DNA from: Neoarius graeffei | Lineage: Eukaryota; Chordata; Actinopteri; Siluriformes; Ariidae | Assembly: GCF_027579695.1 (NCBI RefSeq) | Contig: NC_083582.1 | Span: 35,969,964-36,033,963, forward strand | DNA: 64,000 nt | Reading direction: 5' to 3' | Program-made: the position numbers and the translations under genes | Shown: one piece after another, positions 19,260 to 64,000 of the stretch | Layout of the letters: the number at the start of each line of letters is the position of its first letter | How positions within the stretch are numbered: the first letter of the stretch is position 1 | The notes under the pieces: generated by a model | Databases searched by the model: none | What the model was told of the DNA's origin: nothing | Seen by the model: only the letters and a program-made list of their open reading frames with translations

Positions 19260-19682
19260 TACATCCCGGATAGGAACCAGTCCATCGCAAGTCACAACCA
19301 CATATACACCTAGGAGTAATTTATTCACCTACCAGGATGTTTTTAGGAAGGCCATGCAGACTCTGTGTGAACATGTGAAACGCCACACAGAAACTCAAAC
19401 TCAGCATCGAATCAGGGACTCTGGAGCTGTGAAGCTGCAACACGAGTTCACATAACGTGAATGAAACAAATCTTCCTACAGATTTGAAATCGAAAAACCG
19501 ACATTATCCCATGCACCATTACCGTTTTAAATCGCACCTAGCTCAAGTGAAGTTTATTCAATCAGCCCTTTATGGAACTGAGACAACAGGACTGTCAATT
19601 TGCAGACAGGAGTCATGATGCAATGATGTGATTCATGATTCAAATGAGGGCCCACCTGAAAAATCCACCAGCTCCACCCACT
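19260..19682. other. Unassigned intergenic DNA
   Basis: Possibly another degraded repeat: GATAGGAACCAGTCCATCGCAAG near 19269 resembles SINE-tail-like text. Nothing could be assigned firmly. Confidence 0.35.
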
Positions 19683-19812
19683 TTCCATCCTTACATTACA
19701 TTACAGGCACTGAGCAGACACTCTTATCCATAGCGACATACAACAGAACCCTGACATACCCACAGCAGTCAGCAGCCTGGGGAGCAGTTGGGGTTAGGTG
19801 CCTTGCTCAAGA
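19683..19812 (-). mobile_element. Outer SINE, 3' portion (left half of a split SINE)
   Basis: On the minus strand this is the 3' part of a second SINE family (CTTATCCATAGCGACATACA segment, ending in TAATGTAATGTAAGG). It is interrupted at CTCAAGA by the 7.7-kb composite 19813-27492 and resumes at 27493 with CAAGAGCACTTCCTG. Joined at the CAAGA repeat, it reads through like an ordinary SINE of this type. Confidence 0.75.
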
Positions 19813-21181
19813 CAGGGCTTGACATTAAGGATTGCCTGGGGCAAGTGAGACATGCATTCGGGCAAGTAGGATATGTCCCCGACATGCCCGACCGAGCAAG
19901 TTGAAATGAGCATATATTTCAAACTAGCACCACAAAACTTAGGCTTTGTGATCTTTTATTTCAGTTCCTAAAAAAAAAAAAAAAAGAAAAAGTGTCCCTC
20001 ACTATGTCTCTGCCATTATGCCTTGGCTGTTTCTTAGTCTCAGTTTCATTTACTGCTTCGCAAGTTATTTTATATCCCCCGCTGTTGTAGCATGGTACGC
20101 GTACTGTTTATAGACCCCTTGTGCATGACGTCTGGCATCACGTGATAATTATAGCTGGGGTCAGACAGACACTGTCTTTCATGCAAGCAAGGCTTAATCT
20201 GTCTTCAATATGGTTCATTTTAGCGCCGTTTTTGCTCGTTCAAACAAAGAAATAGATAAAAAGGCAATTACCGTCTCCCCGCTATCAAGAAAAACATTAA
20301 CAAATAGAAGCAAATGCTTAAAGAATGATGGGGAAATGAGTGGTTAAAGAATACAATGAGAGCTCAGCCTGAAAACTCCAGAGAAAATCACTATTGTATT
20401 TAAAACGTATTTTACAAAAAACAAAGTTGGAAGTGAGGGTGGAAGAGTTTGCTTAAAAATCTCTTTCTGCTCGCATTCGAGTTAGTGCCTTCATGAAAGT
20501 GTTCGATTTTCTTACAGGTGAAGCCGCTTCTTTATTCGACACAGAAAACCCATATTGGTTTCAAACAACTCGGACATAAAAAAACTCAACAAGGAGCGAC
20601 ATGCGCGATAAATCCTGAAAGAACAGAACAGATTAAGAGCAGAAAGAGCTGGAGCTTTGTTTCTGTTCTCAGAGGAACACAGTCCAGTGCAAAATTTTAT
20701 ATACATAAAAAAAAATAAAATATTTTCTATATAATTTAATTTTTTTTAAATCATCCACCTCTAGGTTTATTTAAAAAAATAAAAATAAAAAAATAAACCC
20801 TGTGCTGCATCATGACTTACCGGCTGTACTGATTCGGTTACAGGTTGCCAGGTCTGTATAAAAACACCCACAACCTATACACTAAACTATAATTTTAAAC
20901 TCAAACATTATCCTGTCTCATGACACAGTGAGGGTTTTTTTTTTAAACCTAGAGATGGATGATCTCACAAAAAACAACAATATATTCTCAAAACACAGTA
21001 CTGTTCAAAAGTCTTGGCACCCTATTGTTTTCTTCATACAAACTGTTATAGATTTCTATTTTATGATTTCTACATTATCAAGTAATGAACCTACAATCTG
21101 AGAGAGTTTTACACAAACACACTGAACCTTACAACAGCTGCATGCATGTGGAATGAAAAACCAACTAAGGCAGGGAAAACT

Positions 21182-21556
21182 CATCTCATCTCATTATCTC
21201 TAGCCGCTTTATCCTTCTACAGGGTCGCAGGCAAGCTGGAGCCTATCCCAGCTGACTACGGGTGAAAGGCGGGGTACACCCTGGACAAGTCGCCAGGTCA
21301 TCACAGGGCTGACACATAGACACAGACAACCATTCACACTCACATTCACACCTACGGTCAATTTAGAGTCACCAGTTAACCTGACCTGCATGTCTTTGGA
21401 CTGTGGGGGAAACCGGAGCACCCGGAGGAAACCCACGCGGACACGGGGAGAACATGCAAACTCCACACAGAAAGGCCCTCGCCGGCCCCGGGGCTCGAAC
21501 CCAGGACCTTCTTGCTGTGAGGCAACAGCGCTAACCACTACACCACCGTGCCGCCC
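21182..21556 (-). mobile_element. tRNA-derived SINE, copy S5
   Basis: Inverse orientation; perfect target duplication GGCAGGGAAAACT at 21169-21181 and 21557-21569. Inserted in the THAP-bearing TIR element. Confidence 0.9.
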
Positions 21557-21585
21557 GGCAGGGAAAACTATTTTGGATAAAATTG

Positions 21586-22116
21586 TTATTGTCCATTACA
21601 AGTAAAAACTAACCAATAACCTCCTTCCTTCCTCCCTCCCTCCTCCTTAGGCAGCCTTCGGTCTCGAGACTGTGGATAGCGCCATGGAAGGTAATTTTCT
21701 GGGTTTATAAGCAGCATCTGGAGTGGCCAAGGAGCCCTATTCTGTTGTGGCAGTCCTTTCCGCACTTGTTGCAGATGAAATCTGTAGGTTGCTGCTGGCT
21801 TTGTTGTCCGTTTCCTTATTGCTCTTTTCTCCTCCAACTGGCAGGCACGTCTTTCATCACCACTCTTCACTGCTTTCGTGACAGCACTCCACCAATGGCT
21901 TCGGTCATCTGCAAGGGACTCCCAAGTTTGGATGTTGATACCAGCAAGCTTCAGGTCACGCTTACACACATCCTTGTACCGGAGCTGCAGTCTGCCAGCA
22001 GGGCGGGATTCCTTAGCCAAAGCACCATAGAGAAGGTCTTTTGGGATGTGGCCACCCTCCATTCGATGGATGTGGCCAAGCCATCGAAGACGCCTCTGGC
22101 TCAGCATAAGGTGCAT
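21586..22116 (-). pseudogene. LINE C-terminal domain fragment
   Basis: Contains RRLRWLGHIHRMEGGHIPK and YKDVCKRDLKLAGINIQTW, features found after the RT domain in many APE-type LINEs. The following zinc finger (CNKCGKDCHNRIGLLGHSR) is readable only in a shifted frame near 21700-21770, so there is a frameshift just before it. Confidence 0.8.
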
Positions 22117-22158
22117 GCTAAAGAGACCTGCTCTGTCCAGGACCTCAGTGTTGGGAAC

Positions 22159-22509
22159 TCAGTCCTGCCAGGAGATGTTGAGGATTCGCCTAAGACATTG
22201 AAGGTGGAAGCTCTTGAGCTGGTTCTCCTGCCTGGCATATGTTGTCCATGATTCACTGCCATAGAGCAGGGTGCTCAGGACACATGCCTGGTACACTTTG
22301 AGCTTGGTGTTCTCTGTGAGATGCTTGTTGCTCCACACCCACTTTCTCAGCTTGGACAACACAGCAGCGGCCTTGGCGATACGTTTGTCGATTTCCGCAT
22401 CCAGAGAGAGGTTGCTGGAGATGGTCGAGCCCAGGTAGGTGAAACTGTCAGTGGTGTCAAGCTCCATCACCGATGTTAATGACTGGAGGATCGTTGGTAT
22501 CTTGACCAA
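22159..22509 (-). pseudogene. LINE thumb/connector fragment
   Basis: Carries SFTYLGSTISSNLSLDAEID, KVYQACVLSTLLYGSESWT and HLQCLRRILNISWQD, typical of the region downstream of the RT palm in LINE ORF2. It overlaps the RT fragment in a different frame, so a frameshift near 22480 separates them. Confidence 0.85.
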
Positions 22510-23059
22510 TCACCTTTTTCTTCTTGATGCTGATGGTCAGCCCAAACTCATGACAGGCCTTCACAAAGCGGTCGATCAGTCTCTGAAGCTGTTCCTGTGT
22601 GTGGGAGGTCAGCACTACATTAGCAAAAAGAAGTTCCTTGATCAGAACGTGCCGGACTTTGGTCTTGGCTTTAAGGCGGGCTAGGTTGGACAGCTTTCCG
22701 TCACTTCTTGTGTGTAGATGGACTCTGTCCTCTGAGTCGCTGAATGCATATGCCAGCAGCAGGGAGATAATGATTCTGAACAGAGTTGGAGCAAGGACGC
22801 AGCCCTGCTTCACTCCGCTGCAGATCTCAAAAGGCTCAGAGGTTGATCCGTTGGAGACTGTGCCTTTCATGCCTTCGTGGAATGAGGTTATGATGCTGAG
22901 CAGTTTTGGGGGGCAGCCAATCTTGCCTAGCAGCTGGAAGAGGCTGCGTCTGCCCACCAGGTCAAAGGCCTTGGTGAGGTCTATAAAGGCCAAGTACAAG
23001 GGCATCTGCTGCTCACGGCACTTCTCCTGTAGCTGGGGGACAGCAAAGCTCATGTCCAC
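22457..23059 (-). pseudogene. LINE reverse transcriptase fragment
   Basis: RT palm motifs are readable: LAFIDLTKAFDLVGR (motif A, catalytic Asp present) and CSGVKQGCVLAPTLF (motif B). The motif C box that should read FADD is LLFANVVLTSHTQEQLQRL, so the catalytic Asp pair is lost. A stop lies just upstream (23060-23090), before the sequence that would read NGFRAERSTV. The enzyme is inactive. Upstream RT N-terminal text (23208-23450) includes LSSGKAPGEDAIPPEVIK. Confidence 0.9.
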
Positions 23060-23207
23060 GGTTGATCTCTCTGCTCTGAATCCATTCTAGGATTCAGGAT
23101 AGATGCGTTCAGCCAGGGTTTGCAATCAGGCCAGTACCACTCAGGCAAAAACCTTTCCCATGATGATCAACAGCGAGATGTCACAGTAATTGTTGCAGTC
23201 GCTACGA

Positions 23208-23450
23208 TCACCTTTGGTTTTTGTACAGGGTGACGATCTTGGCATCACGCATGTCTTGGGGTACCTTGCCCTCCTTCCAGCACTGACACAAGAGCTCATG
23301 GAGTGGCTTCAGCAGCACTGGCTTCCTGCTCTTGATGACTTCAGGGGGGATGGCATCCTCACCTGGTGCTTTGCCGCTGCTGAGAGCATTGATGGCCTTG
23401 CTCAGTTCTTCAACAGTGGGTTCTGCATCCAGCTCCTCTAAGACCGGCAA
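23208..23450 (-). pseudogene. LINE RT N-terminal fragment
   Basis: LSSGKAPGEDAIPPEVIK and PVLLKPLHELLCQCWKEGK are the SGKAPGxDxIPxE and downstream segments that precede the RT palm in ORF2 proteins. A frame break separates it from the palm fragment at 22457-23059. Confidence 0.85.
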
Positions 23451-24191
23451 GTCTTCTATGGCATCCAGGGCTTTCTGGGAGAGAGTTTTCTCTGGAGTAG
23501 AGCTCCTTCAACCCATCTCCCCATCTGCTTTTCCTGGTCCGTGATGACTTCCCCGGTCTTGGTCTTCAGCTGAGCGGTCTTCTTTATGGGTACGCTATGG
23601 CTTGTTTGATTCCCTCATACATGCGTCGGACGTTGCCAGTGTCAGAGGCAATCTGGATGGAGGAACAGAGGTGCTGCCAGTAATCGTTGGCACACCGGCG
23701 TGCTGTCTGCTGGGCCTTATTGCGGGCGAATCTTAGTGCCTGCAGGTTTTTCTGGCCAAGGTTGCATTTGTAATCAAAGCAGTCCACTTGGACTCGATTA
23801 CAGGCTCCATCTAGGGCTGTGCGATATATCGAGTATATTCGATATATCTCCGAAAATTCTGTGTGAGATACATAAAATTATTATATCTTAACTATTGAGT
23901 ATTTTATGGTCATCTGCCGACTTGCGTTTGTTTCGTGTTTGGTGCGTTTGTTTAAAACATTTTCCGGTGGTTTTCTCCCGGTCCCTCAGACAGTAATGTG
24001 AGAGGCTGCCTAAGGGTTAAAAAAAAAAAAGTCACACACTTGCCAACCAATCCCGGGCAACATCTAGGTGCTGAAAGGAACTTGCGGGAAGATTTTCTAG
24101 TTTCAGTTTACAGCGCTGACTCAGTTCGTGCAATCGCTGGTGTTGCATAGGCTACCGTGTAAGCTCTGTCAATTTCAGCGACAAATTAAAA

Positions 24192-24629
24192 ATGGAAGCA
24201 GACAAATTGGTTCCTAAAATAACTAGTAAGGGGTCAGTCATCTGGCATTTTTTTGGATATCGCGAGGAGGACATGGAACAGCAAATGCCAGTTTGTAAAG
24301 TGTGCAAAAAAACTGTCATCACGAAAGGCAGCAGCACTACAAATATATTCCATCACCTGAAAACTCACCCGGTACAGTATGAAGAGTCTCTTAGACTCCA
24401 AACTACTTGCCCACAAGCTACCCCCCCCCCCACACACACACAAGCTAAACAAATGACCATAGCGGCCTCGTTCTCCAAAGCCACCCCATATGAGAAAACG
24501 AGTCAGAGATGGAGAGCTATCACGGATGCAATCACTAACTTCATTGCCGAAGACATGATCCCAATTAGTATAGGTGGAAAAACCAGGCTTCCAAAAATTA
24601 CTAAAAAACACACTCGATCCCAAATATGA
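24192..24629 (+). pseudogene. hAT transposase N-terminus (BED zinc finger), truncated
   Basis: A 145-codon frame: residues about 16-60 form a BED-type finger (SVIWHFFGYREED, then VCKVCKKTVITKGSSTTNIF and HHLKTHP), giving a C-x2-C ... H-x4-H pattern. A later part (ASFSKATPYEKTSQRWRAIT, DAITNFIAEDMIPIS) matches the start of the hAT core as in ZBED-like proteins. After a frameshift near 24600, EKPGFQKLLKNTLDPKYELP continues the homology. The RNase-H-like catalytic region and dimerisation domain are absent. Confidence 0.85.
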
Positions 24630-24837
24630 GTTGCCTGGTTGCAGACATTTTACAGAGAAGGCAATACCAGAATTATACACATCTGAGAGGCAGAGCCAGA
24701 AAACATTCAGTTCAAAAGTGTGCAAAGAGAAAAATTATGTTTTACAGATCTCCCTCTTCTCTCCCTCAATCTCTCTCTCTATTGTGAATGTTCCAGTGGT
24801 TCTCAGTAGTCAGGTTAATAGCTTGGAGCTCTACCTC

Positions 24838-25206
24838 ATCTCATCTCATTATCTCTAGCCGCTTTTATCCTGTTCTACAGGGTCGCAGGCAAGCTGGAGC
24901 CTATCCCAGCTGACTACGGACGAAAGATGGGGTACACCATGGACAAGTCGCCAGGTCATCACAGGGCTGACACATAGACACAGACAACCATTCACACTCA
25001 CATTCACACCTATGGTCAATTTAGAGTCAACAGTTAACCTAGCCTGCATGTCTTTGGACTGTGGGGGAAACCAGAGCACCCGGAGGAAACCCACGGGGAG
25101 AACATGCAAACTCCGCACAGAAAGGCCCTCGCCGGCCACGGGGCTCGAACCCGAACCTTCTTGCTGTGAGGCGACAGCGCTAACCACTACACCACCGTGC
25201 CGCCCC
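24838..25206 (-). mobile_element. tRNA-derived SINE, copy S6 (innermost of the nest)
   Basis: Inverse orientation; target duplication GGAGCTCTACCTC at 24825-24837 and 25207-25219. An internal deletion of about 12 bp removes part of the CGCGGACACGG segment. It is the youngest layer of the 19683-27582 nest. Confidence 0.9.
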
Positions 25207-26043
25207 GGAGCTCTACCTCCATTTTTTAAAATAATTTAATGAATGAGCACTTTTCTTTTTTAGGCTAAATGTCTCTCAGTGTTGAGCTTGCACTTTATTG
25301 ATTTGAGCTCTGAGCAGCTCTGTATTGTATTGACCCTTTGCTGCAATTTTCAAGATTGTTTTTGCAGTTTGTGCCACATCCTTGTTGAATAAAAATAGTC
25401 TTATTTCAACTCAATTGTGATTAATCACTAACATGAAAAACATGTTGTTGAAAACCACCTGTAAAATTAACCAAGAATGTTATTTAATCTGCAGGGATTG
25501 TAGTGAAAACAGTAAAGAGTAAAAGTTAGATTTCATGGGGTCTTTTAGAGGAGATTTTAATATATCGAGATATATATCGTATTTCGTGAAATGGAGAAAC
25601 TGTATCGGGATATTCATTTTTTCCCATATCGCACAGCCCTAGCTCCATCTCTGCGATGTTTGCCTCAAAATCAGTGTTCTTCAGATCCTTCTTGCCGTAC
25701 GTTGTTATGGCGGCACTGTAGATGGTACTGCGAAGGGAGGCTCAGGTTTCTTCTGCACTGCCAGCTGATGTCTTGGGGAGAGTCTGACACAGCAGTTCCA
25801 CAAACTCTTGGCTCTTCTTGGCGTACGCCATCTTGCTGGTGTTAATTCTCGGCTGACCTTTTTGTTTGGAGCAGTAAAGCTTCTTGGGCCTGAGCTTCAC
25901 TCTTGAGATGATTAGAGTGTGGTCGGTATCAGTCAGCGCTGTGATAGGCTCTGATGTTGGCGATGTTGTTCAAAGAGTCGCGCCTGACAATGGCACCAGC
26001 TGGACCTGGTCAATGTTTTGACTGGGGGTGTCTTCAGGACACC

Positions 26044-26724
26044 TTATGGCATGTCTTGTTGTGGAAGGTGTTTGTAACACAGATTGTGGAAGCAGCACAG
26101 CTCCAGGAGCTTCTGCCAGTTTTCATTCATCTTCCCGATGCCATGGTGTCCGAGTACAGCTGGCCAAAACTCGTGGTCGGCACCAACCCTAGCATTGAGG
26201 TCACCTAGGAGGATCATGTGCTTTTGCATGGGGATACTGCTGGTCCTGGTGTCAAGCGACTCGTAGAACTGGTCCTTGACCTCTACCGCTATCTGTAGAG
26301 TGGGGGCATAGGCACAGATGATGGTGACTGGGTCTTGCGTGGTGGACAGGCGTAGGCTGAGTAATCGCTCTGTGCCATCTGTTGGAGGCTTGATCATGGA
26401 AAGCAGTGCATTTCTGACAGCAAAGCCTGTCCCGTGCTCTCTGGCTTCCTCTGTGCTCTTGCCTTGCCAGAAGGTGGTGTAGTGCTCCTCCTTCAGCGTG
26501 TCACTGTCTGGGAGTCTGGTTTCCTGCAGGGCTGCTATGTCTACTTTCAGTCTGAGCAGCTCCATGTTGATCACCGTGGTCTTTCTGGTGTCGTCCACTA
26601 CCTCGAGATTGTCCATCAGTCCTGGACGCATGGTCCTGACATTCCAGCTTGCTATACGAAGAGCTGGAGGCTTCGTTTTATGATGTTTGCCTGGCGCAGG
26701 TTTGACGATCCACTTGTCGAGCAC
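26044..26724 (-). pseudogene. LINE APE-type endonuclease domain
   Basis: A 226-codon minus-strand open frame with the apurinic-endonuclease motifs in order: IASWNVRTM (Asn), IAALQETRLPDSD (Glu), HGTGFAVRN, ICAYAPT and HMILLGDLNARVGAD (the Asp and Asn of GDLNA). The terminal SDH-type motif would lie after the 26044 stop. This domain nicks the target to prime reverse transcription. It is the best preserved part of the LINE, but the element as a whole is broken. Confidence 0.9.
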
Positions 26725-27492
26725 TGAGACTCTAAGCTCCAGGCACCCACTGAAGCAGGCAGACCGTGGCAGGTCAGCACCTTACTGGTCGAGGGCTGCT
26801 CGACTTGAGGTGGGCGATAGCTGACCAGTGGCACGTGATGGCCCCTCCCACCGATGAAGACAGCCCCTGGCATCAGACTCTACACCAGTTGAGCTAGGAC
26901 TTATAACCGGTAAATGCTGTCTTCCTTGTTGTATTCTCACCACATGTCGGAGACTGGAGTGACCTCTCCAGGGCGCATGCCAGGGCGAAGTGTATGTTGG
27001 CCTTGCCCTGCCTAGACAACAGGGCCCCCTTCTCAACCTCATTGACAGAGTCCAAAGAAGTGCAGGGCACTACGTTTGGGGACGACTTGGTTGCAGAAGC
27101 TGCTGGAAGGGTGACAGAGTCCATGACCAACTGTCTGCGGGGCTTCACTCTGGGTTTTTCTGTTGGGGTTAGCTCCCTTAGCCTTGTGCTCTCCTGAGAC
27201 TAACCCACAAGGCAGTGGGGCCATTTGCCCATAGCTGGCTCCAACAGTGCGTTTTTTTTTTTTTTCAGGAAAAACTATTTTGGATAAAATTGTTATTGTC
27301 CATTACAAGTAAAAACTAGCCAATAATCAAACTTCAACTCAATGTGTGATCTTCATTTTATGTTGCAATTCACAACTATTCTATGGTTTTCCTAAAATAA
27401 AAAAGTAGTACTTGCAAAATAGGGGGCAAGTGAAAATTTACCCCCACTTGCCCTCCAGGATAAGTGGGTTTAAAAGTTAATGTCGAGACCTG

Positions 27493-27582
27493 CAAGAGCA
27501 CTTCCTGTTGGTCCAGGGAATCAAACCGGTGACCTTTTGGTCCCAAAACTGCATCTCTAACCATTAGGTCATAGCTTCCCCT
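27493..27582 (-). mobile_element. Outer SINE, tRNA-like head (right half of a split SINE)
   Basis: On the minus strand it begins GGGGAAGCTATGACCTAATG, with an A-box region (ACCTAATGGTTAGAG) and a B box (GGTTTGATTCC), then CCTGGACCAACAGGAAGTGC. It continues at 19812 after removal of the inserted 19813-27492 element. Confidence 0.75.
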
Positions 27583-27634
27583 CATCCCCGGGCGCTCTCA
27601 TGTGGCTGCCCACTGCTCTGAGTGTGTGTGCGCC

Positions 27635-27670
<36 letters not shown>

Positions 27671-27752
27671 CACTGCTTCAGATGGGTTAAATGCAGAGGA
27701 TGAATTTCACTGTGCTTGAAGTGTGCATGTGACAAAGGTTTCTTCTTCATCA
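27583..27752 (+). mobile_element. SINE 3' fragment with (GT)n
   Basis: This is the inverse of the tail region of the SINE at 43570-43936 (segments CACTGCTCTGAGTGTG, TTCACTGCTTCAGATGGGTT, TTTCACTGTGCTTGAAGTGT). A (GT)n run of about 35 bp lies at 27635-27669. The tRNA-like head is missing. Confidence 0.7.
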
Positions 27753-28243: not shown

Positions 28244-45677
<17,434 letters not shown>

Positions 45678-47657: not shown

Positions 47658-50600
47658 GTGGACTCCTTCCTGAACTGTTTACTTGCATGTAGCATGAAGA
47701 GCTTTCTTTTAATATAGTAGTGTGTGATAGATAGATGGATGGATGGATGGATGGATGGATGGATGTGGACTCCTTCCTGAGCTGTTTACTTGCATGTAGC
47801 ATCATGAAGAGCTTTCTTTTAATATAGTGTGTGAGATAGATAGATAGATAGATGTGGACTCCTTGATCTGTTTACTTGCATGTAGCATGAAGAGCTTTCT
47901 TTTAATATAGTGTGTGAGATAGATGGATGGATGGATAGATGTGGACTCCTTGATCTGTTTACTTGCATGTAGCATGAAGAGCTTTCTTTTAATATAGTAG
48001 TGTGTGTGTGATCTCGGCTTGCAGGTGCACTTGTGTCGCTCCAGCGTTAAAACACTTCAGCACTACAGCTGGTGGTCCTCCAAAAAGGCCTCTGACTGCG
48101 TACATGCGATACGTGAAGGAACAGCAGCCCATCGTGGTCAAACAGAACCCAGGTAATCCTGTCCATACTGTGTGTTATAAATCCTGTATCTCTAATAACT
48201 CCGCCCACCCCGAAAAGATCTTTTCAGGAGAAAGTAGTCAGTCTTCTTCTTTTGGCCGCTCCCAATTAGAGGTCGCCACAGCGGATCTTTCGTCTCCATT
48301 GCTCTCTGTCCTCCACATCCTTCTCTACCACTTTCATGTCCTCTCTCACCATATCCATGTATCTCTTCTTTGACCTTCCTCATTTTCATGTGCCTGGCAG
48401 CTCCATCCTCAAGATACTCTGCATCTCTTCTCAGGATGTGCCCGTACCATCTCAGTCTCACCTCTCTTAGCTTAATCCCCAAGCTCTCTACATGTGCTGT
48501 CCCTCTGATGTGCTCGTTCCTTATCCTGTCCAACCTCATCACTCCCATCGCAAACCTTAAAGTGCATATTCTGGACCAATTTCAGGTGTTTTTTTTTTTT
48601 TTTTATATGAAAGCATGTCCCTTTACACACTCCTCCAGAAGGGTAATTTTGCACAAGGCCATCTGTCTACAGCAGAAAAAAAATAAAATAACAAAACGCG
48701 TCTGGAAAAATCCCAAGGGAGTCTGGAGCCAGATTCGTGACGTCACCTGCGGAAGCGCCAGCAGGCTGCGCGAGCTTTGCATGGTTTCAGTGCACAGCCT
48801 GTGTAGACCAAGCGCTCCCATTTCTCTCTCATTGTCCGGTCTTTTGGGAAACGATGAGGACTAATCCCATCAAGATTGGTGTTGCTACACCCTCCTACAA
48901 TACATCTGTTAACCATTTTAATAATTACGTGATAACGTTGAAGAAATTTGCAGAAAACCACCAGGTCGTTTTCTCATAAACAAACCAGCGCTGACGTAGG
49001 ATTCAGAGGGAGGCGTCCCGCACGCGACGTCACGAAAATCAGTGTTTGCCGGGAAATCCAAATGCCAAGTTTTTTCAGAGGCGGACCAATTCGCTTCAAA
49101 TGGCTTGATTTCAACTGAATTTTTCTGGTATTGCGCAAGGTAAAAAAATTGCAGAGAATGCAGAATGTTACAGATATTTGACCAAAGTTTAATATAAAAT
49201 AGGAGAATTACATTGATCTTGCTCCTGAATTTACCCGTGATATGCAGTTTAAGGCCCTGTCACACTTATTTGGAATTAGCAGGAATCAAGCAGAACCAGG
49301 GGTGGCACGGTGGTGTAGTGGTTAGTGCTGTCGCCTCACAGCAAGAAGGTCCTGGGTTCGAGCCCCGTGGCCGGCGAGGGCCTTTCTGTGCAGAGTTTGC
49401 ATGTTCTCCCCGTGTCCGCGTGGGTTTCCTCCGGGTGCTCCGGTTTCCCCCACAGTCCAAAGACATGCAGGTTAGGTTAACTGGTGACTCTAAATTGACC
49501 GTAGGTGTGAGTGTGAATGGTTGTCTGTGTCTATGTGTCAGCCCTGTGATGACCTGGCGACTTGTCCAGGGTGTACCCCGCCTTTCGCCCATAGTCAGCT
49601 GGGATAGGCTCCAGCTTGCCTGCGACCCTGTAGAACAGGATAAAGCGGCTAGAGATAATGAGATGAGGTACCCTATGGGTCCATGTGGTTCCTGCTTATA
49701 AATAAAATTGTTTTCTGATCCCATGTCCACACAGTAAATATAGCTCATATATTTACTCTATGAGGCAGTAGGCACAAAAATGAAGTGTAATCCAAAAATG
49801 AACAATTTTTTTAAAAAATCACAGAAGTAAAGTATACCAAGTGTCTGTACTTTATATTATTCTACTCTTACCTCTTACGGTTTTCGAAACTGAAACCTCA
49901 GAACTGAGGCTGACATACACACGCTGTCGCCATGACCCAAACTCTTATTTCGCGGAAAAGGTCCGGTGCTAGAGCTCAGTGGTCTCAGTACTCTTTTTGA
50001 CAACTTCCTGTAAAAATAGGGATCATTTTCGGTCATGTTTCTGTGCTTGGGAGGATTTGGTGGTGGTGCTTTTGATGGCTTTGAGTGAGAGCTTACACCA
50101 TAGATGGTCATCCTCCAGGGCCACTAGCATACCAAGATGAAAATTGCCCCTTTTCCACCAAAGCAGCTCCAGGGCTGGTTCGGGGCCAGTGCTTAGTTTG
50201 GAACCGGGTTTTCTGTTTCCACTGACAAAGAACTGGCTCTGGGGCCAGAAAAACCGTTCCAGGCTAGCACCAACTCTCTGCTGGGCCAGAGGAAAGAACC
50301 GCTTACGTCAGTGGGGGGGCGGAGTTGTTAAGACCAACAACAATAAGAAGACCGCGAAAGATTGCCATTTTTAAGCGACGAGAAGCAGCAGCTGTACAAA
50401 CGCAAAGTCATTTATTATTATTGTTGTTGTTGCTGCCGCTGCTGCTTCCGTGTTGTTTTTGCTTCGATATTCGCGCCAAGGTTTATGCAAACGTAGCGAC
50501 GTAACTGACGTATACAGCGACGTAATGACGTATACGGTGACGTAACTGATGTATACAGCGATGTAATGACGTGTCTCCTCTTAGCACCGCGAGCGATGGA

Positions 50601-53600
50601 AAAGCAAACTGGTTCTCAGCTGGCTCGCGAGTTGAATGAGTTGTGAACCAGCACCAGCACCGGCCCCGAACCAGCTCTGGAACTGATTTGGTGGAAAAGG
50701 GGTAACAGTGGATCTCTGGTGGGCAAAAGTCAGGAAGTGTGGAAGATATCCTTTGTCATTAAAGATGGTGAAAGCTCTTTTGTCATGCTTCCATGGTTGA
50801 AGGGACATTCAGCATTATGGGGGACATTTTAGAAGATTATTCAGGCAGCGTGAAAATCGAGACCTACAGTGCTGTGCAAACACAGGGATCGACATTAAGG
50901 ACTGCCTGATTGCCCAGGGCAAGTGAAATATGCATTCGGGCAAGTGGGATATGTCCCCGATGTGCCCAACCGAGCAAGTTGAAATGAGCATATACTACGA
51001 ACTAGCACCACAAAAATTAGGCTTTGTGATCTTTTATTTCAGTTCCTAAAAGTGTCCCTCACTACGTATCCGCCATTATGTCTTGGCTGTTTTCTTAGTC
51101 TCGGTTTCTTTTACTGCTTCACAAGTTATTTTATATACCCCGCTGTTGTAGTATGGTACGCGTACTGTTTATAGACCCCTTGTGCATGATGTCACACATC
51201 ACGTGATAATTACAGCTGGGGTCAGACAGACACTGTCTTTCATGCAAGCAAGGCTTAATCTGTCTTCAATATGGTTAATTTTTGTGCTGTTTTTGCTCGT
51301 TCAAACAGAGAAATAGATAAAAGGCATTACCGTCTCCCGCTATCAAGAAAAATATTAACAATAGTGATGAAAGTGTTCCAGGATTTCCCGGAATTATGGG
51401 TTTTTAGATTTTTCTGCCGGATTTTTTCTGCTAATGACCCGGAAATCTGGATATTTGACAAAACTCTTGAAAATCTCCGGTTTTTCGACTGGAGAAATTT
51501 ATTTTTCAGATTTTTCGCATTCCTAGACGTGGCATAATACTTCGCATCGTCCTTGCATGGGCGCCGTCCTTAAATAGCCTAAATGTAGTTCACTGATTAA
51601 AGACAGGTGTTCTTTGATAACGGCGCGTGTGCCGGAGCTCGTTAGGCGCACGCGCCAGTGCCTTCAGGTGCACGTGCTAAGGCACGCAGGACTGACACCG
51701 TTCTGCGCAAGCGCACTAGAAAGCATGTTCAAGCTGCCAGTGTAGCTGCAGTCTTTTTAGTTGCAAATTACGAGTATTTTCTCGTGTTAATTCGCCAAGT
51801 CAAAACAAGCAAAACTTTCCTCCTTCTTTCGACGTGAAGAGGTAAGCAATTTATAATTTTTTTTTTTTCCCCATCAAAGTTGCATTTTGTGGTTTCGAAG
51901 CTAAGTTTTAGTGCCGTTTCTAGAACACGACATCAAGAAAACGTGGAAGAAAGCAATAATGGAAGAGCCGGTTTGCCACTTTTCCACTACCAACGCGGCT
52001 GAGTCGGGCTGAGCCATGCCGTGCTGAGTCGAGCTGAGTGGGGCTGTTGGAGTTGCATTTCGACTACAACCGCGCTGAACCGTGCTGGCTGGAAGTGGGT
52101 GGACACATTGGGTGGAGTTAGCGAAAGTGGGTGGACGTCACGTGATGTCGTTAAGCAGCGCAAACAGTGACATCAGTGACCTTTTAAGCGGTAGTCTCAC
52201 AACCCGGATAGTAAACAATAAACATGGAGTCGTTAGTGTTGCTGGTCTTGGTGCTGTGGCTTGTTGTCACCGACAACGCCAACAGATACTGGCAAGAGCG
52301 TATAGATGAGGCGAGGCGCATAAGGCTTCAGAAATTCTCGTAATTCGTAATTCTTCTTCTTCCGGGTTTGCGGTGTTTACAGATCCCAGCGCGCTCGCGG
52401 GGTGTGTGTGGGCATGTGAGGACACTCCTCCTCACCAATCAGTGCACAGGGGAGTGTCTGCTCACGCCCCTAGCCCCACTCGGCTCGGTTTGGCTCGCTT
52501 CAGCCCCACTCCAAAACCGTGCGAGTTTTAGGGGCTAAGCAAGGCCGAAGCGAGACGAGTCGTGCTGTTTTTTGGTAGTCGAAACGCGAGCCGTGTCGGG
52601 CTGAAGCGAGCTGAAAAAGGGTAGTGGAAAAGGGCCAATGCGGCCTAAAACTAGCAATGGTAATTATTTTTTGTTACATAATGTACTCAGGCTGCCAGTC
52701 AGTGTGTGACAGACCCCCGAAAAATCCTTTTTATTTCTTTTATTTATTTCAGTTTATTTAACCCTTTGGTAGTGATAACACTAAATTACAAGGGAGGCCA
52801 AATACAATACAATAACACACACAAAAAACGTATTTAGTCCCTACTGAACTTATAGGTCACAAAGTTGCTAAGTCGGTCGGTCCTAGCTACGCCCCTGATT
52901 TACATGAGAAATTTGGTCTTCATTGGCGTGTTTAAATTTACAGACAATACAAACTAATGTCAACAATTGGCTTCAGCTCGCGTAAATATGAATTGGAAAT
53001 GTTTAGTTCACTTTAGCTTCTGCAAACGCACAACTCTACTGAAAGATTGATAAACGAGGCTCAACGTCCCCAACACTGAAACCTGAAAGCTTTAGAAACT
53101 CTAACAGACCTTTACTTTTTAACAGCACTGTTTTGGGATTTTGCTGAGTTTACCTTCAACTGTCTGATTTTTTTCAAAGTAATGAACTGTGTAGCAGGAA
53201 AATCGCCGCGTTTTCTAAATGCACTCCTGAAAATTACTCATTAACTCGGAGAATTAAATTTTGATAGTTTTGGCATGTTAATCATTAATGCACATGAAAG
53301 AAAAAGGCTTAAAATTTATAACTTGTTTTAGTGAAAATAAGTACTAAAATGCACTAGAATGCAGGGTTTTGCGTGTTATGTTATTAAAATATTTTCGGGG
53401 GACGTTGCCCCGCCATTTCAGGGTTTTTTCCTTTGCTCCACTTTCATCTCTATCACAAATGGAAGCAAATGCTTAAAGAACAACGGGGAAATGAGCGGTT
53501 AAAGAATACGAAGAGAGGAGCTCAGCCTGAAAACTCCAGAGAAATTCACGATTGCATTTAAAATGTATTTTACAAAAAGAAAGTCGGAAGTGAGGATGGA

Positions 53601-56600
53601 AGAGTTAGCTTAAGAATCTCAGGTTTTTTGTTTGTTTGTTTTCCCTCTTCTGTTCGCATTTGAATTAGCAGCTTCATGAAAGCGTTTGATTTTCTTACAG
53701 GCGAAGCCGCTTCCTTATTCGACACAGAAAACAGATTGGTTTCAAACAGCTCGGGCATAAAAAACTCAACAAGGAGTGACGTGCAATAAATCCTGACGGA
53801 ACAGATTAAGAGCAGAGAGAGCTGGAGCTTTGTTTCTGTTATCGGAGGAACACAGTCCTGTGAAAAACATTTTATTATTATTATTTTTTTAAAATCATCC
53901 ACCTCTAGGTTTATTAAAAAAAAAAAGCTCTGTGTCATGACAGACCGGCTGCACTGATTCAGTTACAGGTTGCCAGGTAATAGGGGTGGGCGATATGTAT
54001 CGTCTGCGATGTCATCGTGAATGTTGTTTTGACGATGTGTAATTTTGCATTATCGAGTTTTTTTAATTAAGCCGCCAAAAATCAATACAGAGCGGAGCAG
54101 ACCCGGCGCCAAACACGGACTGACGGATGGGCCTTGAATTGCTTTGGGGGGGGGGCACACATTTTATACGCCAAGCCAGGGCAACACAACTGTTTCTAGC
54201 AACCCAGGAGAGCAGCACAGACGTGACGAGTTAAATATTCTAAGAAACCTATAAAGCAACCAAAACAACTTTCCAAAATGTATCAAACATTGCTCAGCAT
54301 ATTAAAAGTTTTTTTTTTTTTTGCTCCGCTGGCCTCACAACGCACAAAGCTGATTTCGGGTATCTACTGGAATATGTCGTGATATGATCCCGTCCAGCAA
54401 TAAAATGTGATTGGCTGAGACAGCTGCTCATTTACCCAGATACCATCTGAAGAAAAAATGCGATTGGTCGGTTGGTTCATTCCATGTCATTAACCCATTG
54501 GTTCCCAAGAAATATTAGTCCACGTTTATAGCAATGATCCAGAAATTATTACTAGTGTTTCTGTACTCACGGATAATAATGAATGAACCGATCAGCCGAT
54601 TTCGAATAGTTTCAATACATTTTAAATTGAGCACATTTTTCTTTATTATTGTTATACTGAAAAACTTTGACTTGTAGTTTACGTTTTTTTTTTTGAGGGG
54701 GAAAAAAAAAACAAAGAAGAAGCTGTGACGGGCTCCTATCAGGCCAAGTGCTGTCACTCGCCGGCCACTTTCAGGCATCTTTTTCGGATTAGTGAGACCA
54801 GACCCTCTGAACATGAATGGGGAGATATCAATGCTGGACTCTGTGAAAACTAACGGTCGCGAAGAGCATATGATTGAAATCGCCATGAAAAGTTGATTAT
54901 ACTTGAGTGTTAGGTTGGTTCTCATGACTCAGAAAAAGCTTTAAAATCCACTTTTCTCGTGGATTATTTTGACACTGCGCAGGCGCAGTACTTCTGTAAC
55001 GGCAGGAGAGGGACAGCGGAGCACGAAGCTGCAAGATGATTGGAAAGCTGTTGGTTCAGATCGACATATGATTGGTTGTTGGCAGCGGAACAGGCGGGAT
55101 ATTTGCAGACCCGTACTGCCGTCAGAGACGGTTGATTAGAATGTTTGCTGCCGTTACGAACTGTCAATTGAATTATTCATTTTTATTAATTTAAAGTTGT
55201 TTAAGAAAATAAATATGGCTTTTCCTTAAATGCTTGTCACTGCAATGATTCTTTTAGTCATTGTAATTATTGTAATCTTTAAGCAAGTGTTTTTTTTTTT
55301 AAATATCGTCAAAATATCGTTATCGTTAAAATCCTAAAAAATATCGAGATATTATTTTTTTTGCCCATATCGCCCACCCCTACCAGGTAAACAATTTTAA
55401 ACTCGAACATTATCCTATCTGTCATTACGCGGCATTTAAAAAAAAAAAAAAAAAACCTAGAGATGGATGATACGACAACAAAAATAAATAAATATTCTCA
55501 AACACCGTACTGTTCAAGTCTTGGCACCCTATTGTTTTCTTCATACAAACTTTTGTTTTAGATTTCTATTTTGATTTCTACATTATCGAGTAATGAACCT
55601 ACAGTCCGAGAGAGTTCTACACAAACACGCCGAACTTTACAACAGCTGCATGCATGTGAAATGAAAATAAATCGACTAAGGCAGGAAAAACTATTTTGGA
55701 TAAAATTGTTATTGTCTGTTACAAGTAAAAAGTAACCAACAACCAAACTTCAACTTAATGTGTGATCATTTTATGTTGCAGTTCACAACTATTCTATGGT
55801 TTTCCTTTAAAAAAAATAAAAAATAGTACTCGCAAAATAGGGGGCGAGTGATTTAATACTGGGGGCAAGTGGAAATTTACCCCCACTTGCCCCCCAGGGC
55901 AAGTGGGTTTAAAAGTTAGTGTCGAGCCCTGTGACATCAGTGCAGATGCAGTTCCATGCTGATCCAAAATATGCCAAAGTGGACACGGCTGTCTGCAGAA
56001 ACGTGCATAAAGCATACAGGATCAGCAAGGAAGTTGTGGGAAAGTCAAAAACTCAAGTCTCGTGGTGTGACAATTCCTACAGTTGTTCCTCCATCAAAGA
56101 GGAAGTTTCAGGAGACTCTGCAGTCAGATGTGGACAAGTCCATTTAGCTTCGTGAGACTAGTGTTGTGTCCAAGAGGAAGAAGACCATGTGATCGTGCTG
56201 TTGACTAAAGGCCAATTTATGCTGACAACCCAGTCCTTGCAGATAGCGTCTGCGTAGCCCCCCCACCTTCGCAGACGCTCTGCGCGCACCTCCCAAAAAT
56301 TGTGACCACCGCAGAAGCCTCGCAGACAAGAGGGCTCTGATTGGTCCACTCTACATCCGCTGTACACGCACTTCCGCTTCCCTACTTTCCCGGTTTGTTT
56401 TGTTTTCACGACCGCCATTTTTAAAAACACGAGCGAAGATGGAGCAGCACGAAGAGCGGTTGATCGAGGAAGTGAGGAAGTACGTACATCTATACGACTC
56501 CAGTTCTAGTCATTATAAGTAACCGGAGGATAAACACTCCACTAACCACACCCACCAACTACTCCTAGCGATTTCGCGCCCCCTTGCGTTGTGGCGGTGA

Positions 56601-56800: not shown

Positions 56801-59800
56801 TTTCCAGGCTAGCATGCCCCCAGATCCCCCCCAAGCCTCCTTCTCGCACCCCTGATTATTCATTGAACCATCAGGATCTTTTGCATATTGAAAAAAGTTC
56901 AACGACGTGCCAAGATTTTCTGCACCCCTATTCAGATGGGATTCGTTTATCGGGGGGCATCTGTGCTGACTTTTTACGTGTCTCCTTAGTGATCAAACTC
57001 ACATCTGGAGAACAGTGGGAACGATGGTGATCAGTGACTGGCTTGTTGAAACACAGGCTGCGTATTGGCGACATTCACGACAGCTTACGCGACAGAACAG
57101 GATACGGCGTAACAAGAATTGTTAGGGTGTAATCAGCAAAGCTTCCTTCACGCACTATTAATTAAAGGTGCTGACTGCAAAGTTGAATTCTGGGTAAAAA
57201 TGTTCTATTTCTGTTGCTGTTTTGAGATGAAATTGAGGAGTTGGGCTGCTCCACATGCGCGCGCGCACAGCGAGTATCCTTTGTGTAAGTGTTTTGCCGA
57301 GATAAAAAGCGTCCTGCGTTTTATGATTCCGGAGATTGCTGAAGCAAGCGAGCAGCAATATCACATGACCATCGTGGGCTGTGTTTGACCTACTTTTAAC
57401 CAAAACAAGTCGGCGTGGGCAAACATGGCGGACGTGGCTCTCCTGCCAGTGGAAAAGAAAAGGAAAATATGAAAGCGAATCAGCTAGAAAGCGCGCCAGA
57501 AACGTGATGGAAACCAAAAGGTTGTCCGTGAGAATTTTCGTGAAGGGACAGATCGACTGGAGGATGAAACGAGCACGAAATCTGATGAACATGCATCATT
57601 TTGATCTTCCAGAGAAAGAAACGAGAATACAAAAGCAGGAACAGAGAAAAGATCTATATTCGTCTTTCACGAATAGATCTGTGAAACAATGTCAATCACA
57701 AATTACTTCCCTGCGACTCGGAACTCTCCGAGGTCGATGCAGAGTCACGATGGTTTCCTCACGTCGCCATCTTGGTGTGACGCGGTTCCATAGTTATGCT
57801 AATGAGTTCAAGTTCCTCGCGTACAGCTCGACGGAAACAGCCGAACTGTTTACCACAAGAGGGAGGATATTCGATCCCAAAACCGAAAAGTGACCCTCAG
57901 CACATCAAAAGGATCGCATCTCTTCTGCATAATATTGTACTTGCGGGACATCGGAAAATGCCATGCGCAATAAAAAAATGAAGAAAATTTCAGATTACTT
58001 TGCAGTCAGCACCTTTTTTTTTTTTTAAGATTTTTTTTGGGCTATTTTCACCTTTACTGGATAGGACAGTGTAGAGACAGGACAGGAAATGATCGGGAGA
58101 GAGAGACGGGGAGGGATCGGGAAATGACCTCGGGTCGGAATCGAACCCGGGTCCCCAGATTTATGGTATGGCGCCTTAGCCACCTGAACCACGACGCCCC
58201 CCCAGTCAGCACCTTTTAATGTGAACAGCTTGAGGAAGTGAGCGCTGGTGCTGTCATTTTACGGAAATGTAAATCGTTGCATGGTGTAATGATGATGATG
58301 TAATGCAAGTTCACACCGATTTCTAGACAAATGCTTTCATTTCCAAATTGTAAAATGCAATTCTTCAGTCAATGTGTTTGTTGTGTCTACGTACCTAGAA
58401 AGAAAGCACAACTTTATTCATCACACACTTGTGAAATTTCCTCTCTGCATTTAACCCATCTGAAGCAGTGAACTCACACTTGCGCACACACACATGAGCA
58501 ATGAGCACACACACATATACACCCAGAGCAGTGGGCAGCCATGCTAACAGCGCCCAGGGAGCAGTTGGGAGTTTGGTGCCTCGCTCAAGGGCACCTCAGC
58601 CCAAGGCCGTCCCGTATTAACCTAACCTGCATGTAGGGCTGCACGATATCAGAAAAATATGCGATATTCGATAACATGACTGAATATCTCGATATCGATA
58701 TGTATCACGATAATTAAATATATAATGTTTTTCTTACCTCTACTCGCCGTTCTGCCCTGTATCTAGCATTTAAAAAAAAAAAACACCCAATGCATCGCTT
58801 CCATTCCAACATTATTTTTTATTGGAAAAACATTGCTACACCTGCAATGGTGTCCATCAATCATCTTTAAATCTCTTAATTTTTGTGAGCGCAGCAGAAA
58901 ATGTCTTAAGCTGAAGTAAACAAAAAACTGAAAACTACATTACATTAACATAAAGCATTCAAAATGGCAATTTCAGCGGCTCCCGGGAGATGAAGGTGAG
59001 CGACACAGATTCACCATAAACTCAAACACAATCTGTTAATAACACATGCGGGTGAGAGAGCAGTGGTGGGTGTGTGTGTGTGTGTGTGTGAGTGAGCGAG
59101 CGAGCGGTAGTGTGTGTGTGTGAGAGGTAGTGTGTGTGTGTGTGTGTGAGAGAGAGCGCGAGAAAGCATAATGTTTTTATGCTTCTGTACAGCAGTGTTT
59201 GTCCCAGTGAGCCGCCCCACCACTGTTTTACATGTCTTGCAAAGTACCTGAGTTTGCAGTACATCACCCCTCCTGAATCCAAAGTACTTCCAAATAGCAG
59301 ACGTGCATTTTTTTTTTTTTTTTGGAAACCAGTTCCTCCTCACACAAGTTTGTCTCACCATACTTGCTCCCGCCTTCCGCCATCACCACGAGGCTTTTAC
59401 TTGTTTTGCAATAGGGGGCGGAGTTATCCCGCGGCGCTTGTTGACATTCAAATGTGATTGGACGGCACAGAAAAATGTGCCTTTTATCGAAATTTAAGTA
59501 ATTTTTGCGGTATGTGTATCGCAAACTATGATATCGCGATATCGATACTTTTTCGATATATTGTGCAGCCCTACCTGCATGTCTTTGGACTGTGGGGGAA
59601 ACCGGAGCAGCCGGAGGAAACCCACGCAGACACGGGGAGAACATGCAAACTCCGCACAGAAAGGCCCTCGCCGGCCGCTGGGTTCGAACCCAGGACCTTC
59701 TTGCTGCGAGGCGAGAAAATCTGACCGTTAAAGCAAAAACTAAATGTTCAAAAGCTTTGTATCATGTGTCCAGATGATCTCCAAATGTAGAAACTTGTGT

Positions 59801-62444: not shown

Positions 62445-64000
62445 CAGTGGTGCTTGAAAGTTTGTGAACCCTTTAGAATTTTCTATATTTCTGCATAAAT
62501 ATGACCTAAAACAACATCAGATTTTCACACAAGTCCTAAAAGTAGATAAAGAGAACCCAGTTAAACAAATGAGACAAGAATATTATACATGGTCATTTAT
62601 TTATTGAGGAAAATGATCAGATATTACATATCTGTGAGTGGCAAAAGTATGTGACCCTCTAGGATTAGCAGTTAATTTGAAGGTGAAATTAGAGTCAGGT
62701 GTTTTCAATCAATGGGATGACAATCAGGTGTGAGTGGGCACCGTTTTATTTAAAGAACAGGGATCTATCAAAGTCTGATCTTCACAACACATATTTGTGG
62801 AAGTGCATCATGGCACAAACAAAGGAGACTTCTGAGGACCTCAGAAAAAGCGTTGTTGATGCTCATCAGGCTGGAAAAGGTTACAAGACCATCTCTAAAG
62901 AGTTTGGACTCCACCAATCCACAGTCAGACAGATTATGTACAAATGGAGGAAATTCAAGACCATTGTTACCCTCCCCAGCAGTGGTCGACCAACAAAGAT
63001 CACTCCAAGAGCAAAGCGTGTAATAATCGGCGAGGTCACAAAGGACCCCAGGGTAACTTCTAAGCAACTGAAGGCCTCACTCACATTGGCTAACGTTAAT
63101 GTTCATGAGTCCACCATTAGGAGGACACTGAACAATAATGGTGTGCATGGCAGGGTTGCAAGGAGAAAGCCACTGCTCTCCAAAAAGAACATTGCTGCTC
63201 ATCTGCAGTTTGCTAAAGATCACGTGGACAAGCCAGAAGGCTATTGGAAAAATGTTTTGTGGACGGATGAGACCAAAGTAGAACTTTTTGGTTTAAATGA
63301 GAAGCATTATGTTTGGAGAAAGGAAAACGCTGCATTCCGGCATAAGAACCTTATCCCATCTGTGAAACATGGTGGTGGTAGTATCATGGTTTGGACCTGT
63401 TTTGCTGCATCTGGGCCAGGACGGCTTGCCATCATTGATGGAACAATGAATTCTGAATTATATCAGCAAATTCTAAAGGAAAATGTCAGGACATCTGTCC
63501 ATGAACTGAATTTCAAGAGAAGGTGGGTCATGCAGCAAGACAACGACCCAAAGCACACAAGTCGTTCTACCAAAGAATGGTTAAAGAAGAATAAAGTTAA
63601 TGTTTTGGAATGGCCAAGTCAAAGTCCTGACCTTAATCCAGTCGAAATGTTGTGGAAGGACCTGAAGCGAGCAGTTCATGTGAGGAAACCCACCAACATC
63701 CCAGAGTTGAAGCTGTTCTGTATGGAGGAATGGGCTAAAATTCCTCCAAGCCGGTGTGCAGGACTGATCAACAGTTACCACAAACGTTTAGTTGCAGTTA
63801 TTGCTGCACAAGGGGGTCACACCAGATACTGAAAGCAAAGGTTCACATACTTTTGCCACTGACAGATATGTAATATTGGATCATTTTCCTCAATAAATAA
63901 ATGACCGAGTATAATATTTTTGTCTCATTTGTTTAACTGGGTTCTCTTTATCTACTTTTAGGACTTGTGTGAAAATCTGATAATGTTTTAGGTCATATTT
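62445..64000 (+). mobile_element. Tc1-like element F, right end cut by window
   Basis: Begins CAGTGGTGCTTGAAAGTTTG after TA (62443-62444). Right inverted arm visible from about 63840 (GGTTCACATACTTTTGCCAC) to TAATGTTTTAGGTCATATTT at the window end; arms of about 200 bp match closely. Carries an uninterrupted transposase. In tfam intron 3, same orientation as tfam. Confidence 0.9.
62810..63832 (+). CDS. Tc1-like transposase, apparently intact
   Basis: 340 codons from ATG 62810 (MAQTKETSEDLRKSVVDAHQ), the usual length for Tc1-family transposases. The open frame extends upstream to 62699, but that part lies in the inverted-repeat region. Bipartite DNA-binding HTHs lie at about residues 8-105: GKGYKTISKEFGLHQSTVRQ, then RPTKITPRAKR and the second HTH VNVHESTIRRTL. 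Catalytic DD34E: D1 in LWTDETK (about residue 154), D2 in [11 protein letters not shown] (about 244), E in DLNPVEMLW. The glycine-rich box HGGGSIMVW precedes D2. Cut-and-paste transposition at TA sites. Only Val and Met around the Glu differ from the more common NPIENLW; no stop or frameshift. Whether it is expressed is unknown. Confidence 0.92.
   Translation: MAQTKETSEDLRKSVVDAHQAGKGYKTISKEFGLHQSTVRQIMYKWRKFKTIVTLPSSGRPTKITPRAKRVIIGEVTKDPRVTSKQLKASLTLANVNVHESTIRRTLNNNGVHGRVARRKPLLSKKNIAAHLQFAKDHVDKPEGYWKNVLWTDETKVELFGLNEKHYVWRKENAAFRHKNLIPSVKHGGGSIMVWTCFAASGPGRLAIIDGTMNSELYQQILKENVRTSVHELNFKRRWVMQQDNDPKHTSRSTKEWLKKNKVNVLEWPSQSPDLNPVEMLWKDLKRAVHVRKPTNIPELKLFCMEEWAKIPPSRCAGLINSYHKRLVAVIAAQGGHTRY

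Follow-up and report, generated by a model that had tools for sequence, protein, structure and literature searches.

A stretch of 64,000 nucleotides (nt) on contig C14 of Neoarius graeffei, hereafter the window, contains a nest of transposons in which elements of five kinds have almost certainly been inserted one in another. From oldest to youngest, the layers are a tRNA-type short interspersed element (SINE), a DNA transposon with terminal inverted repeats (TIRs), a long interspersed element (LINE), a hAT element and SINE C, a SINE of a different family. The boundaries, the target duplications, the insert-free sister sites and the nesting order are direct observations, and the insert-free copies agree at every junction with the order of layers proposed in an earlier note on this DNA. 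The duplications quoted in that note, CAAGA, GCTCCATC and GGAGCTCTACCTC, are all present, exact and directly at the element ends, and the extra SINE that it saw adjoining the LINE in the second layer (SINE B) is found with its own 13-nt duplication, GGCAGGGAAAACT. The note also held that one boundary lacks a matching duplication; its other duplications stand, and the LINE, for which none was quoted, has one of 61 nt.

The genome searched comprises 2.34 Gb in 38 contigs, and the repeats look to be of bony-fish type. When layers are removed and the joined flanks are matched to other copies, the flanks continue in sister copies of the Neoarius graeffei genome. The joined LINE flanks gave 20 matches: 11 cover the full query, two are the window halves, two extend over slightly more than half of it, the junction included, and the five weaker ones, at 67-82% identity, were left unread. 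Thirteen sister LINE stretches were fetched, and the hAT/LINE junction is crossed without an insert in 13 of the 13 copies read. The likely coding frame of the LINE is open across this joined junction; a second of the three frames is open there too, and frame continuity is therefore set aside as evidence. The SINE/hAT junction is joined without SINE C in all 40 scored matches (940 candidates), and SINE C is absent from each of the 20 sister hAT copies read. Its duplication is exact on both sides, and both repeats carry a C at a site where none of the 20 sister hATs does, so this change probably preceded the insertion of SINE C.

The junction between the oldest SINE and the TIR element is likewise bridged in other copies. 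A search with the left half of that SINE gave at least 42 matches, the window included (40 of 1738 first-look candidates scored). Besides the window itself, seven loci were fetched; the junction is crossed in all seven, in one by just 7 nt, and six of them continue from the left half into the tRNA-like head. For the insertions within the TIR element, two further copies of that element lie in the window, c1, which runs off the edge of the window, and c2 (Table 1). Copy c2 is uninterrupted at both the LINE site and the SINE B site, and c1 is without the LINE. Base composition gives a chance of a match at a fixed boundary of about 2e-8 for each 13-nt duplication, about 2e-5 for GCTCCATC and about 1e-3 for CAAGA.

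Table 1. Features of the nest and its right-hand neighbor (window positions; strand "." where the feature is unoriented).
Feature	Positions	Strand	Remarks
Whole nest	~19686-27587		
Candidate 5-bp duplication CATCC of layer-1 SINE	19686-19690	.	weak; partner 27583-27587
Layer 1, 3' half of tRNA-type SINE	19691-19812	-	head at 27582; includes left CAAGA 19808-19812
Layer 2, left part of TIR element	19813-21168	.	TIR CAGGGCTTGACATTAA; paralogues c1 3-1614, c2 50883-55931
SINE B, read as inserted in left copy of LINE duplication	21182-21556	-	13-nt duplications 21169-21181 / 21557-21569
Left copy of LINE 61-nt target duplication	21559-21619	.	59/61 identical to 27266-27326; single copy in c2
Layer 3, 3' part of LINE, reverse transcriptase	21620-23811	-	RVT_1 E 3.5e-17; AAGG-like repeat tail at 21620; includes left GCTCCATC 23804-23811
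Layer 4, left part of hAT, BED-finger reading frame	23812-24837	+	perfect terminal repeats; zf-BED E 8.1e-06
Layer 5, SINE C (SINE B family)	24838-25206	-	13-nt duplications 24825-24837 / 25207-25219
Layer 4, right part of hAT	25220-25641	+	
Layer 3, 5' part of LINE, endonuclease domain	25650-27265	-	Exo_endo_phos E 2e-07; 5'-truncated at A tract; preceded by right GCTCCATC 25642-25649
Right copy of LINE 61-nt target duplication	27266-27326	.	
Layer 2, right end of TIR element	27327-27492	.	TIR read inward CAGGTCTCGACATTAA
Layer 1, tRNA-like 5' half of tRNA-type SINE	27493-27582	-	begins with right CAAGA 27493-27497
Tail of another SINE family, outside layer 1	27588-27752	+	matches 43574-43671, 58431-58560

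The place of SINE B in time depends on the sequences around the LINE. The sequence is CAGGAAAAACT in the right LINE duplication and GGCAGGAAAAACT in c1 and c2; at one diagnostic site these three have A, and both SINE B duplications have G. SINE B is placed after the LINE because of this difference, and the simplest history would probably be insertion of the LINE, then a change of A to G in the left LINE duplication, then insertion of SINE B. The reverse order, with the LINE landing 2 nt beside a resident SINE B, is allowed by the geometry, since the start of the LINE duplication lies 2 nt within that of SINE B. The divergence of SINE B (5/358 from the leave-one-out majority) is only the fourth lowest among seven full-length copies, so that SINE B is not strikingly young. 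That order would require a second change at the diagnostic site, however, and is considered improbable.

Several observations weigh against the nest as drawn here. CAAGA is short, and the joined layer-1 SINE is without about 8 nt that are present in six long copies; BLAST places this gap 5 nt beyond the junction in four of the six and at the junction in the other two, where a position 5 nt further fits equally, and the gap is read as an independent small deletion. Six of the 20 sister hATs are 6-7 nt short at the SINE C site, probably as a subfamily difference. A 12-nt deletion lies 7 nt ahead of the hAT junction in one of the 13 LINE copies, 29 additional nt are present in c1 near the LINE site, and the insert-free evidence for the sites in the TIR element comes from two paralogues, both within the window. 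The order of SINE B and the LINE rests on one nucleotide and three comparison sequences. The locus is also repeat-dense, the kind of region where assemblers err, and the mosaic might be an assembly chimera joining unrelated repeats. Such a misjoin would not yield both matching duplications of 5, 8, 13, 13 and 61 nt at element ends and insertion sites that continue uninterrupted in sister copies, and the probability of a chimera is therefore put very close to nil.

The limits of the nest differ from those first given. The oldest SINE was said to start at 19683 and begins near 19691 instead, and the nest was extended to 27752, a position that falls at the end of the tail of a different SINE. CATCC is the sole shared word of at least 5 nt between 19655-19690 and 27575-27600. 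A sixth, outermost layer was tried and rejected: the left flank of the oldest SINE was set against the upstream portion of the SINE that supplies the adjoining tail, and the scores were matched or beaten by 924 and 356 of 1000 shuffles. The SINE at 43571-43950 has a front half of SINE B type and a back half of the adjoining-tail type.

The window holds six further full-length members of the SINE B family, of which SINE C is one. SINE C has the highest divergence of the seven (11/350 from the leave-one-out majority), and the remaining five range from 1/359 to 7/352. The window hAT is off the leave-one-out majority of five other copies at 51/1422 sites, those five being non-independent because one flank is common to all of them. 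The TIR copies differ from one another at 145/1165, 162/1473 and 150/1130 sites (11-13%). From the TIR copies through the hAT and SINE C to SINE B, these divergences fit the order of nesting. SINE B is perhaps younger than SINE C, on a comparison of seven copies, which are few and pool subfamilies. Target duplications are visible by eye in six of the seven full-length copies, one with a mismatch and one in an AT-rich repeat; none was seen by eye for the copy at 49299. SINEs B and C have putative tRNA-like A and B boxes, picked out by eye, and their middle part may resemble that of the V-SINEs. A scan of the window with ARAGORN gave no tRNA gene, and a literature search by SINE sequence found no match.

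The hAT element has terminal inverted repeats with 17-nt arms (23811-23827 / 25626-25642) that are 100% complementary, the outermost base of each belonging to the flank. The 8-bp duplication GCTCCATC on both sides is that of the hAT superfamily. Eleven sister copies have a readable 5' end. The 8-bp repeat is exact in six (L035, L041, L046, L049, L051 and L053) and has a single mismatch in four (L034, L039, L040 and L044); L042 was compared no further than its shared flank, and copies with a shared flank are non-independent. The single hAT frame examined (24120-24626) has a zf-BED domain and no hAT transposase core. Among the flanks of the 20 hAT copies (L034-L053), 10 have one 3' flank in common and four another, and the hAT therefore seems to be carried along inside two larger repeated units.

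The LINE has Exo_endo_phos and RVT_1 domains, both above cut-off, as in non-LTR retrotransposons with an apurinic/apyrimidinic (AP) endonuclease. Compared with five sister copies, which continue upstream for about 240 nt more, the window copy is 5'-truncated; this truncation and the target duplication also fit that group. A reading of the A tract at its 5' end as a misplaced poly-A tail was rejected: sisters carry an A-rich stretch there and LINE sequence beyond it. Duplications were checked in seven sisters. Three are clear (L022, 10 nt; L026, 11 nt; L023, 12 nt with one mismatch), two are ambiguous because of simple or tandem repeats, and two show none, so that the 61 nt of the window copy are out of line with the 10-12 nt of the clear sisters. 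They also exceed the length given for duplications from target-primed reverse transcription, "typically no more than 20 bp" (PMC13295347, excerpt). It is conceivable, if unlikely, that this LINE family can make duplications several-fold longer than the usual 10-12 nt through a second-strand cut about 60 nt away; the window copy within the TIR element would then be a snapshot of a wide-stagger mode. A search of PDB with the endonuclease part of the LINE returned no LINE but four weak chains, AP-site lyases in two cases (E ~0.5). Among viral contigs, six stretches fit the pattern of LINE relatives and none was confirmed.

The second layer was described in the earlier note as bearing a THAP domain, a label that a profile search does not bear out: pieces of c1 and c2, both degenerate copies, matched no Pfam family, the nest's own copy being left out of that search. 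A search of PDB by sequence gave no THAP chain for c2. The peptide start MVNFCAVFA in c2 may resemble the start of a THAP domain, although THAP is not confirmed. This peptide would fit a non-autonomous element of the P superfamily with a degenerate THAP domain. Medaka Izanagi, as described in the excerpt of PMC2820524, is such a short THAP element and is also split by a LINE. The TIR sequences of the layer-2 element are unlike those of both Izanagi and Pdre2, however, and its duplication in the nest copy is 5 bp, not the 8 bp of the P superfamily, a comparison made on two copies, of which c2 has no clear target duplication visible. Izanagi and Pdre2 have 8-bp duplications (excerpts of PMC2820524 and PMC10983969), and for this reason the layer-2 element is not filed under P; membership of that superfamily is possible but doubtful.

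Both paralogues of the TIR element carry insertions of their own. At the edge of the site in c1 equivalent to that of SINE B is a small inverted-repeat element (1010-1350) with 30-nt arms that are 90% complementary. Copy c2 is interrupted by a second hAT-like element (53981-55382) with terminal repeats matching at 17/17 positions and CCAGGTAA on both sides. It also holds an insert of about 2.1 kb (51362-53454) containing a 25-nt inverted-repeat pair, 84% complementary. Elsewhere in the window are an open frame of 379 codons that encodes Tc1/Sleeping Beauty-type transposase domains (62693-63829) and a partial HMG box (47993-48367), which may resemble that of the mitochondrial transcription factor TFAM.

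Five insertions into or onto a resident tRNA-type SINE almost certainly account for the locus, the mechanisms being those inferred from knowledge of each family. The TIR transposon entered the SINE with a 5-bp duplication. After that the 5'-truncated LINE went into the TIR element, presumably through target-primed reverse transcription at an unusually wide stagger of 61 nt, and a non-autonomous hAT was inserted between the endonuclease and reverse transcriptase parts of the LINE with an 8-bp duplication. SINE C entered the hAT with a 13-nt duplication, and SINE B, probably after the LINE, the left copy of the LINE duplication.

The nest is a well-supported instance of an already known kind and leaves transposon biology unchanged. 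Deep nesting looks ordinary here: three copies of the TIR element were found in the window, and each carries interruptions. The value of the locus is its set of insert-free controls: it is compact, each layer has a control in its own genome, and it therefore offers a worked example and a test of dating by divergence.

The splitting of a fish TIR element by a LINE has a published precedent. In the dmrt1bY promoter of medaka, the LINE Rex1 interrupts Izanagi, likewise a short TIR element, which the excerpt of that report describes with a degenerate THAP domain and as dated by divergence from a consensus (PMC2820524). The Izanagi/Rex1 nest has two levels, whereas that of Neoarius graeffei has five, and Izanagi differs from the layer-2 element in TIR sequence, in the length of its duplication and in its THAP domain, unconfirmed here. 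Transposon interruptions are an established tool. The interruption analysis of PMC2517846, as excerpted, also relies on transposons cutting other transposons, but it concerns genome-wide selection statistics in mammals, whereas the present case is one fully resolved locus. In SINEs B and C a putative tRNA-like head is followed by a presumably conserved middle part and a repeated tail, a layout that would match the V-SINE superfamily of vertebrates (Ogiwara 2002, cited in the excerpt of PMC3747384).

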